Assembly: GCF_003633725.1 (NCBI RefSeq) | Contig: NZ_RBIJ01000004.1 | Span: 1 to 64,000 of the forward strand | Length of the DNA stretch: 64,000 bases | Source of the DNA: Brockia lithotrophica | GTDB taxonomy: Bacteria > Bacillota > Bacilli > Thermicanales > DSM-22653 | Reading direction: 5' to 3' | Shown here: in pieces, positions 11,749-14,935 of the stretch | Layout: each line of letters opens with the position of its first letter | Position numbering within the stretch: the stretch's first letter is position 1 | The notes under the pieces: model-generated | Database searches by the model: none | Told to the model about the DNA's origin: nothing | The model's input: only the letters and a program-made list of their open reading frames with translations | Made by a program: the position numbers and the translations under genes

Positions 11749-11813
11749 TTACGCCAAACTTTACAAAAGGTTAACCCCCCGTTCACGGGGGGTTTACACG
11801 TGCTTGGTAGGAT
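11749..11813 (+). promoter_or_regulatory. Pho-box array and -10 box
   Basis: Five hexamers, TTACGC (11749), TTTACA (11760), TTAACC (11771), TTCACG (11782) and TTTACA (11793), start exactly every 11 bases. This matches the PhoP-binding direct repeats of Bacilli (TT[A/C/T]ACA-like, 5-base spacers). TAGGAT (11808-11813) sits 9 bases after the last hexamer, placing the array at about -22 to -70, as in PhoP-activated promoters. Predicted activation under phosphate limitation by PhoPR; the regulator is not in the window. Confidence 0.78.
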
Positions 11814-11863
11814 GGCGAGGTGCGGAGGAAGGTTTTTCAGATGCTTCGAGAGGAGGGAAACGG

Positions 11864-14800
11864 GTGAACGGCCGCATCCCCCGGTTTGCCGCATTCTTTG
11901 CGCTTTTGGTGTACGTGTGGACTTCCCTTGCCCCGGCAGCGTGGGCACAGTCCCCCGCCCCGGAGGAGGGAGGGCTCGTTCGCCTCTTTTCCGAGGACTT
12001 CGGTGGGGCGACGAAGGGAAAGTACGCTGCGGGCGAGGTTCGTTTGGACTCTGGGACGTGGTATTTAGACGACGCCCTCCTGGGGAAGGACGACAATCCC
12101 GACGGAACGCAAAAGGACAAGCGGGTCGGAGAACGGTCCGTCCGGATCCGCAATTCCGGCAAGCTCGAGATGCGTTTTGACGTGGACGCGCGCGGGCGCG
12201 TGCGCGTGGACGTCCTCCACGCGATGTACGGATCCGATCAAGGAGGACGCTGGCGCCTCGAGTATTCTCCGGACAAAGGCGAGACGTGGCGGGCGCTCGG
12301 CGAAGAGGTCGCGAGCGGCCCCGACCTCGCCCTCGCCTCGTTTTCCCTCGACCTAGAAGGATTCGTGCGTTTCCGCGTGCTCAAGACGGACGGCTCTACG
12401 GACGGAAAGGTGCGCATCAACGTCGCGGAATTTGCTGTCTACACCGGCGCGCCAGGGGAGAATCCACCTTCCTTTGGCCCTCCGGGTGACGGTCAAGACG
12501 TCCCTCCGAGAGACCCCACGGCTCCCGATGAAGGAGGGGCATCGCCTCCTTCCGGCGGGAACGGGGACCACCCCGTGAAGCTCCACCTCATCCACACGAA
12601 TGACATTCACGCCAAAATCGGGGACTTTGCGAAGCTCGCCCGCTACGTGCAGGACGTGCGGGCACACGAGCCGTATACCCTCTTCCTCGACATCGGCGAC
12701 CAGTTCAGCGGCGACGCCGTCGTCGACCTCCCGAAGGGGAAACCCATGGTCGAACTCATGAATGCCGTTGGTCTCGACGCCATGGTCGTCGGGAACCACG
12801 ACTTCGACTACGGTCCAGAGGAAACCCAAGCGCGGCGTGCAGAGTCGACCTACCCTTGGCTTGCCGCCAACGTACACGTCGCAGATCCGGCGGCGACACC
12901 CCTCACTCCCTTTGTGCCGTACGTCGTCTTCCGCTGGGATTCGGCGGGGCGCGTCGAGCGGATCGTGGGAAATCCTGGCGACCACGACCGCGACTTCGGC
13001 CGGGAGACGTCCCGCCTTACCGTAGGCGTCCTCGCCGTGACCCAAGCTCCCCCGGCCACGGCGCCCAAAAACGTCGTCGGACTGGAATTTGAACCGTACA
13101 TTCCCGCCATCGAACGCTACCTCTGGCTCCGCGACCGTGTAGACGTCCTCATTCTCGCAACGCACGTCGGCTACCCCGACGACCGCCTCCTCGCCGAACA
13201 CTTCGGTCCCGTATTCGACCTCATCGCCGGGGCGCATAGCCATACGCGCTTGGACAAGCCCGTCTGGGTAAACGGGGTTCCTATCGTCCAGACGGGGGCG
13301 CATCTGGAAAACGTCGGCCACACGGTGCTCACCGTAGATCCCGGGGCGCGACGCGTCATCCACGTAGACGGCGAACTCGTCCCCTTGGCTTCCCTCACGG
13401 AGGCGGATCCACGGATCCAGGAAATCGTAGACCGTGCCACGGCGGACGTACGCTCCTTTCTCGAGGAGGTCGTCGGCACCTCTCAACGCGGCCTTTCCCA
13501 AGCAGGGAAGACGCGCGGGGACACCCCGCTCGGGAACTTCTGGACGGACGCCATGCGCTTTTACCTGCGGGACCTCGATCCGGCGCCGGACATCGCCTTT
13601 ATGAACGGCGGAGGGATTCGCGGAGACCTCGCCCCCGGTCCGATCACCCGAGGCGACTTGTACCGCATCGAGCCGTTTGCCAACCAACTCACCGTGATCG
13701 ACCTTCCCGGGCGCGCGTTGGAGGAAATCCTCCGCTACTCGTACACGCGCGACGGCCGGAACACCGTGGACCTTCAGGTGTCCGGGATGCACTACACCCT
13801 GGTGACCGACGCACAGGGGAACCTCTTGGACGTGCACATGGAAGTCGGTGGGAAACCCGTAGATCCGGATAGGATCTACCGCGTCGTCGTCCCGGACTAC
13901 ATCGGCACGGGAGGTTCCGGCTACCCCTTCCCACGCTTGGGAGAGATTCGCTTTACGATGGTGGGCCTCGTGACCCAAGCGCTCGAAGAGTACGCACGCC
14001 ACCTCATGGATACCCGGGGAAGCGTGGACGCGGACAAGGAAGGGAGAATCCGCATCGAGGTTCGGGTGGGCGCCGAAGAACCCGACCTCGTGAGCGTGCG
14101 CGCCGTGCGGGAAGCGCCGGAGGGGACGTTGGTCCGCACGCGCGGCGTGGTAACCACTCCCTTGGGCGCCTGGGGCGGGAAGGGCTTTTACCTTCAGGAC
14201 GATACGGGCGGCATCTACGTGTACCAGACGAATGACGAAGACTTCGGTCCCGGCGACGAGGTAGAGGTCGTGGGGCGGACCAAGGTGTACAACGGCGAGC
14301 TCGAGATCGCCGATCCCGTGCGCGTGACACTCGTACGCCGGGGGGCTCCCCTTCCTGCGGCCCGCGTTGTCGCACCGACGCCAGAGGATCTCGCCGCCCA
14401 TCAGGGGGAGCTCGTCCGGCTCGAAGGCGTGCGCATCGAGAACCTGCGGCAGGCGAACAAGTACGGTAGCTTCGAATTCCTCGCCGCGGGCGCTTCCGGC
14501 GCGGGCGTTCTCGTGCGCGTGGACAGCCGCACGGGTCTCGACTACACCCGCTTTACCGAGGGGCTCGGCTTTCGGGAAGGAGACGTGCTGGACGTCGTCG
14601 GGATCGCCTCGGTGTACAACGGGACGTACCAACTCAAGCCCCGCGGTGCGGAGGACTTCGTCCGTCGATCCGCGGAAGTTCCCGCTCCACCCGCTCCGCC
14701 CGTCGAAGAGTCGCCTCCTAAGGAGGTTCCCGGAGGCGACTTGGATGCGGGGGTTCTTCCTCCTCCCGCAGCGCCTCCGGACCAATCTCCTCCTCCGCAG

Positions 14801-14935
14801 GAAGGCCCGCGCGAGCGGGTGGCCCACCTCCTAGACCGCCTTCTCGCCCGGTTCATGGAGTCCTTCCGTCTGATTTTCGCCCGGCTCTTTGTACCTGTGG
14901 CCCCGTGGTTTTCATTTTTTGCGGGGGGGAAGTAG
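11864..14935 (+). CDS. Secreted 5'-nucleotidase/metallophosphatase, multidomain
   Basis: 1023-residue exported enzyme that frees phosphate from nucleotides. A signal peptide ends near AAWAQS (residue ~29). Residues ~40-190 form a beta-sandwich of the kind found with extracellular nucleases. Then comes the calcineurin-like metallophosphatase core: HTNDIHAKIGDF, GDQFSGDAVV, GNHDFDYG and GAHSHTRL carry the metal ligands. The 5'-nucleotidase C-terminal domain follows with NGGGIRGDL and GTGGSGYPF. Residues ~720-930 look like an OB-fold nucleic-acid-type domain, then a Pro-rich linker and a hydrophobic tail without LPxTG. GTG at 11864 follows AGGAGGG by 6 bases. The upstream Pho boxes fit phosphate scavenging. 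Exact substrate (nucleotide, cyclic phosphodiester or extracellular DNA) is open. Confidence 0.88.
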   Translation: MNGRIPRFAAFFALLVYVWTSLAPAAWAQSPAPEEGGLVRLFSEDFGGATKGKYAAGEVRLDSGTWYLDDALLGKDDNPDGTQKDKRVGERSVRIRNSGKLEMRFDVDARGRVRVDVLHAMYGSDQGGRWRLEYSPDKGETWRALGEEVASGPDLALASFSLDLEGFVRFRVLKTDGSTDGKVRINVAEFAVYTGAPGENPPSFGPPGDGQDVPPRDPTAPDEGGASPPSGGNGDHPVKLHLIHTNDIHAKIGDFAKLARYVQDVRAHEPYTLFLDIGDQFSGDAVVDLPKGKPMVELMNAVGLDAMVVGNHDFDYGPEETQARRAESTYPWLAANVHVADPAATPLTPFVPYVVFRWDSAGRVERIVGNPGDHDRDFGRETSRLTVGVLAVTQAPPATAPKNVVGLEFEPYIPAIERYLWLRDRVDVLILATHVGYPDDRLLAEHFGPVFDLIAGAHSHTRLDKPVWVNGVPIVQTGAHLENVGHTVLTVDPGARRVIHVDGELVPLASLTEADPRIQEIVDRATADVRSFLEEVVGTSQRGLSQAGKTRGDTPLGNFWTDAMRFYLRDLDPAPDIAFMNGGGIRGDLAPGPITRGDLYRIEPFANQLTVIDLPGRALEEILRYSYTRDGRNTVDLQVSGMHYTLVTDAQGNLLDVHMEVGGKPVDPDRIYRVVVPDYIGTGGSGYPFPRLGEIRFTMVGLVTQALEEYARHLMDTRGSVDADKEGRIRIEVRVGAEEPDLVSVRAVREAPEGTLVRTRGVVTTPLGAWGGKGFYLQDDTGGIYVYQTNDEDFGPGDEVEVVGRTKVYNGELEIADPVRVTLVRRGAPLPAARVVAPTPEDLAAHQGELVRLEGVRIENLRQANKYGSFEFLAAGASGAGVLVRVDSRTGLDYTRFTEGLGFREGDVLDVVGIASVYNGTYQLKPRGAEDFVRRSAEVPAPPAPPVEESPPKEVPGGDLDAGVLPPPAAPPDQSPPPQEGPRERVAHLLDRLLARFMESFRLIFARLFVPVAPWFSFFAGGK

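Follow-up and report, generated by a model that had tools for sequence, protein, structure and literature searches.

The region from 11760 to 11813 of the 64,000-nucleotide stretch of DNA that we analysed (the window) is very probably a Bacillus-type promoter that PhoP activates and that would serve the gene of a secreted nucleotidase. The preliminary description had read it as the Pho-box promoter of this gene, a reading that gains support from the regulon that the motif uncovers, from a phoP-phoR-phoU-polA gene cluster in the same genome (G000), and from conservation in a sister species (G001). The nucleotidase promoter is itself ordinary, a further instance of an already known promoter type. 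The most novel by-product of the analysis, and the part worth a laboratory test, is a candidate small RNA placed behind another array of such boxes.

The box array upstream of the nucleotidase gene

In B. subtilis, PhoP boxes are TT(A/T/C)A(C/T)A repeats set 11 bp apart, with four in the core of activated promoters. Five hexamers at 11-base steps, longer than this usual four, had been proposed upstream of the nucleotidase gene. Direct reading bore out their positions on the plus strand (starts at 11749, 11760, 11771, 11782, and 11793, a step of exactly 11 bp) and the gap of 9 bases (11799-11807) between the last box and the -10-like element TAGGAT (11808-11813). However, only four of the hexamers, spanning 11760-11798, are convincing Pho boxes: TTTACA (11760-11765), TTAACC (11771-11776), TTCACG (11782-11787), and TTTACA (11793-11798) fit TTHACR at 6, 5, 6, and 6 of six positions, respectively, whereas the distal TTACGC (11749-11754) fits at 3. 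Because this fifth hexamer is near chance and is not conserved, reading TTGAGC in the sister species (also 3/6), the five-box claim is not supported here, and TTACGC is weak as a Pho box and probably has no functional role. In G001, little has changed from the first good box to beyond the -10; there, the first box is TTTACG and the other three have the same letters.

At least four TTHACR-like hexamers in 11-bp steps thus stand directly before a -10 element with no consensus -35, the arrangement of a Bacillus-type PhoP promoter; a search for a sigma-70 consensus pair at this promoter found none. TAGGAT is an imperfect -10, which we count against the PhoP-promoter reading. A ribosome-binding-site-like GAGGAGGG (11850-11857, plus strand) precedes the gene (11864-14935, plus strand), which begins with GTG and encodes a protein of 1023 aa. 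Its signal-peptide-like N-terminus, judged by eye, together with the domains Metallophos (PF00149) and 5_nucleotid_C (PF02872), marks it as a putative secreted 5′-nucleotidase, and it passes no NCBIfam equivalog cut-off. It is 88% identical to its G001 orthologue over residues 227-1023. That orthologue (G001 L029) lacks an additional N-terminal segment of some 190 aa, encoded at window 11940-12590.

With at most one mismatch, four boxes occur once in the window, in 0/60 first-order Markov simulations of its 64 kb, and in 0/2000 simulations of the local 236-bp intergenic region. Allowing up to three mismatches, the four-box TTHACR pattern is found at 12 places, equivalent to nine loci, in the 1,874,388 bases of the genome, and the reversed pattern at none. 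The four-box array is not due to chance, because of this genome-wide difference. One of the five hexamers is indeed near chance, yet with these counts and the conservation in G001, a fortuitous arrangement of T-rich hexamers is vanishingly improbable. A three-box pattern with two mismatches allowed gave 23 places against 2 controls; the places it added to those of the four-box scan (C1:792220, C2:143307, C3:114767, and C4:173511) are not claimed, having two mismatches in three boxes. A strict TTCAYA-N5-TTCAYA pattern was uninformative (one match, one control).

Inside the array lies a perfect inverted repeat, AACCCCCCG-TTCA-CGGGGGGTT (11773-11794). The spacers of the array are all C or G, and two of them, CCCCG and GGGGG, build the nine-pair stem with adjoining bases. 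Its fold (-17.5 kcal/mol, z = -3.8) and its unchanged letters in G001 would suit a site that acts chiefly as a DNA or RNA hairpin, for example as the terminator of the upstream EamA transporter gene, with the box phasing incidental. A terminator scan nevertheless found it terminator-like on the minus strand only, with a weak T run; the repeat also spans only part of the array, leaving the first box outside, and other Pho arrays hold the register between boxes and -10 with no such repeat, as judged by eye. We therefore regard the hairpin as highly unlikely to be the main function of the site.

Pho arrays across the genome and its relatives

A genome scan with the derived pattern, which had been put forward as a means of locating this lineage's PhoP regulon, does so: six of the nine array loci precede phosphorus-acquisition genes. 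Besides the secreted 5′-nucleotidase-family gene of the window, these are pstS-pstC (TIGR02136 and TIGR02138, both above cut-off), a PhnD-type binding protein (TIGR01098, above cut-off), a phnS2-like system and an ABC operon with a UgpC-nearest ATPase, or ugp-like (both best matches below cut-off), and a secreted phosphoesterase (PF04185) with a beta-propeller. A seventh locus, G000:C2:74304-74342, is gene-less and holds the small RNA candidate. The other two have three mismatches each. One, at G000:C3:117070 (L027:12571-12609), is a weak array before a glycosyltransferase-UppP-HtrA-regulator-kinase operon and may hint at a link between phosphate stress and envelope lipids. The other (G000:C2:102046-102084; L026:12047-12085) precedes a pair of genes that we take to be cydAB-like by their sequence, with no family call; it was not counted as Pho. 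A TTCACA-type 11-bp array stands before this pair in both species (G001:C8:51323-51361), and perhaps answers to ResD or another OmpR-type regulator instead of PhoP.

The absence of phoPR from the genome had been named as a finding that would overturn the proposal, and the gene content of G000 does not refute it in this way. On one strand of G000:C3, a PhoP-like regulator, a PhoR/PnpS kinase, PhoU, and polA (DNA polymerase I) follow in succession. The kinase (78.6-80.1 kb) matches PnpS at 410 bits (cut-off 400) and PhoU scores 231 bits (cut-off 130). The regulator carries receiver and Trans_reg_C domains, has YycF as its best match, and passes no PhoP or PhoB cut-off; we call it PhoP-like because of its neighbour genes. 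The pair at C3:78.6-80.9 kb was taken as phoPR in place of another two-component pair, which lies with HtrA, UppP, and a glycosyltransferase at C3:111-114 kb and whose best matches are MtrA and WalK, below cut-off. No Pho array with up to six mismatches was found in the 10-kb stretch of the phoP operon, so autoregulation of phoPR is not indicated. We count both the scores of the regulator and this missing array against the PhoP-promoter reading. A RAMP-superfamily (CRISPR type III-like) gene (L174:7062-7964) directly precedes the phoP-like gene, with which it shares a strand.

The boxes might instead serve another OmpR-family regulator whose sites are direct repeats with an 11-bp step; the main candidate is WalR, with its motif read on the opposite strand, and ResD is another. 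The WalR motif is TGTWAH-N5-TGTWAH, and on the minus strand the four hexamers fit TGTWAH at 6, 4, 5, and 6 of six positions with no adjacent pair in full agreement, giving 21/24 against 23/24 for TTHACR. The genome holds six OmpR-type regulators, among them a WalRK-like pair (best matches YycF and WalK, both below cut-off), and the weak array before the cydAB-like genes, which came from the same scan, precedes no phosphorus gene. The better fit of TTHACR and the concentration of arrays at phosphorus genes argue against such a reading, however, and we consider such a regulator quite unlikely.

Under the preferred reading, that of a PhoP-activated promoter, scarcity of phosphate would lead the PnpS/PhoR-type kinase to phosphorylate the adjoining PhoP-like regulator. 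Phosphorylated PhoP would then occupy the four head-to-tail boxes as two dimers on one face of the DNA and recruit RNA polymerase to a promoter with TAGGAT as its -10 and no recognisable -35. A transcript from about 11820 would yield the secreted nucleotidase, predicted to release phosphate from nucleotides outside the cell.

Comparison of six promoter pairs from G000 and G001 showed that substitutions are rarer in the boxes (6/144) than in the spacers (18/90; Fisher p = 0.0002). The cydA pair was excluded from this count as probably not Pho; adding it as a seventh gave 12/168 versus 24/105 (p = 0.0004). The four-box scan of G001 with up to three mismatches found 10 places against 0 controls, and none of those 10 was recognised as the counterpart of the G000 arrays at the phnS2-like and glycosyltransferase genes. 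Across 21 genomes (our own and 20 relatives), up to two mismatches gave 64 places against 4 control places, all four in one genome, and 14/21 genomes have at least one match.

Further from the genus, the link between array and nucleotidase is patchy as judged from the homologues fetched. A four-box array lies upstream on the sense strand in 4/44 of them (opposite strand or reversed motif, 0/44) and is absent at up to three mismatches from the other 40. Among these 40 are the homologues of H. schlegelii (L076) and Ca. Carbobacillus (L075), the closest named relatives beyond the genus, and these absences count against the PhoP-promoter reading. Looser rules within 700 bp found arrays at 4 to 7/44 homologues, with wrong-period controls at up to 3/44 and strand and reversed-motif controls at 0. 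The H. schlegelii genome (G004) has longer Pho arrays, of five to six units by eye, at L161:5241 and L159:3825, before a metallophosphoesterase-like frame and a secreted 414-aa protein, respectively. A start-codon scan had left the L161 array gene-less, a result we discarded on seeing the frame by eye; the frame has no NCBIfam match at 1e-40.

The distance between the boxes and the -10 follows a common rule. In 25/28 arrays from six genomes (eight of the nine in G000, cydA omitted; six each in G001 and G004; three in G002; four in G005; and only one in G003), the best TATAAT-like hexamer lies beyond the fourth box at a distance of 9 or 10 bp, with or without added full turns of 11 bp. Leaving out G001, 19/22 are in register, against a chance of 2/11 each (p about 1e-11, both registers having been picked after seeing the data). 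The exceptions are the phnS2-like site of G000 (17, tied with 9), L159 of G004 (33, tied with 30), and L169 of G005 (38). The window array shares register 9, ending 9 bp before its -10, and in 6/7 other G000 arrays an additional one or two turns separate the boxes from the -10; the nucleotidase promoter is therefore unusual in its genome for a proximal box, not for a distal fifth. These results give a poorly studied thermophilic family of Bacillota (Brockia/Hydrogenibacillus/Carbobacillus) a usable PhoP motif and a promoter rule, namely that 9-10 bp, with full 11-bp turns added, separate a box from the -10, and they would place a group of scavenging genes under the control of phosphate.

A candidate small RNA behind a Pho array

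The gene-less array at G000:C2:74304-74342 is followed, 20 bp on and thus in register 9, by TACGAT, and then by a C-rich candidate small RNA of about 84-85 nt (G000:C2:74375-74458) with no gene downstream. Array and RNA together cover 74304-74458 (L025:2305-2459), between a transketolase gene and a substrate-binding lipoprotein gene, both on the opposite strand. The candidate ends in a 9-bp hairpin followed by T8. It folds better than shuffled sequences (z = -3.1 and -2.3), with its first CCCCC in a hairpin loop. The body is identical at 80/84 positions between G000 and G001, compared with 45/63 for the sequence that follows (p = 1e-4); the end of the transketolase gene, at 105/117, does not differ significantly from the body. 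The ATG of the candidate is ACG in G001. With a promoter-like element of its own, an intrinsic terminator, no evident ORF, and a conserved body with a C-rich loop, it has the features of a C-rich small RNA, and a Pho-controlled small RNA at this site is likely.

Rfam gave no match at the gathering score. By DNA comparison at E < 0.01, no copy was found in the other 19 relatives, so that among 21 genomes the candidate was seen only in this genus. A weak covariance-model match at G002:C9:57029 (E = 0.15) was dropped because its locus has no Pho array. Complements of the C-rich stretches were found at 18 places, one of them its own locus, versus 23 for controls, and a second search returned one place (itself) versus 12 controls; neither showed an excess of target sites. 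Titles and the beginnings of abstracts retrieved in a literature search included none describing a PhoP-controlled small RNA in Bacillota, from which we do not claim its absence from print. On balance we lean slightly towards a RoxS-like riboregulator, in which the Pho array would drive a stand-alone RNA made at low phosphate whose two CCCCC stretches block the ribosome-binding sites of phosphate-costly mRNAs. If true, a thermophilic genus of Bacillota would possess a riboregulator of the RoxS kind under PhoP control.

Comparison with known systems

The hexamer, the 11-bp step, and the four-box core agree with the PhoP boxes of B. subtilis, as does the placement of the boxes immediately before a -10 that has no good -35 to go with it. 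In B. subtilis phoP-phoR lies beside polA, and the same adjacency is found here, with the difference that phoU is also present in the G000 cluster. G000 further differs in that many boxes end in CG or CC in its GC-rich genome, that in most of its other arrays the strong boxes stop short of the -10 by one more 11-bp turn than in the nucleotidase array, and that its phoPR itself has no array. The nucleotidase resembles secreted 5′-nucleotidases of the UshA and YfkN type in its PF00149 and PF02872 pair and its secretion signal, and differs from them in falling below all NCBIfam equivalog cut-offs and in its additional N-terminal segment of some 190 aa, which the sister species lacks.

In the portion of PMC4415409 considered here, PHO boxes are described as 11-nt direct-repeat units whose number and organisation vary by promoter, and 5′-nucleotidases are named among the common Pho-induced enzymes. 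The arrays in our genomes are alike in their 11-nt units, variable number, and scavenging enzyme target; the E. coli and Streptomyces consensus sequences given in that portion differ from TTHACR.

RoxS and FsrA are short C-rich small RNAs of Bacillus, according to the portions of PMC8464778 and PMC4409812 drawn on here. Compared with what those portions describe, our candidate differs in having no Rfam match and in its limitation to this genus among 21 genomes. It is like them in being short, in having its own terminator and C-rich loops, and in a promoter apparently under a two-component system, the regulator being ResD for RoxS and, presumably, PhoP for the candidate.
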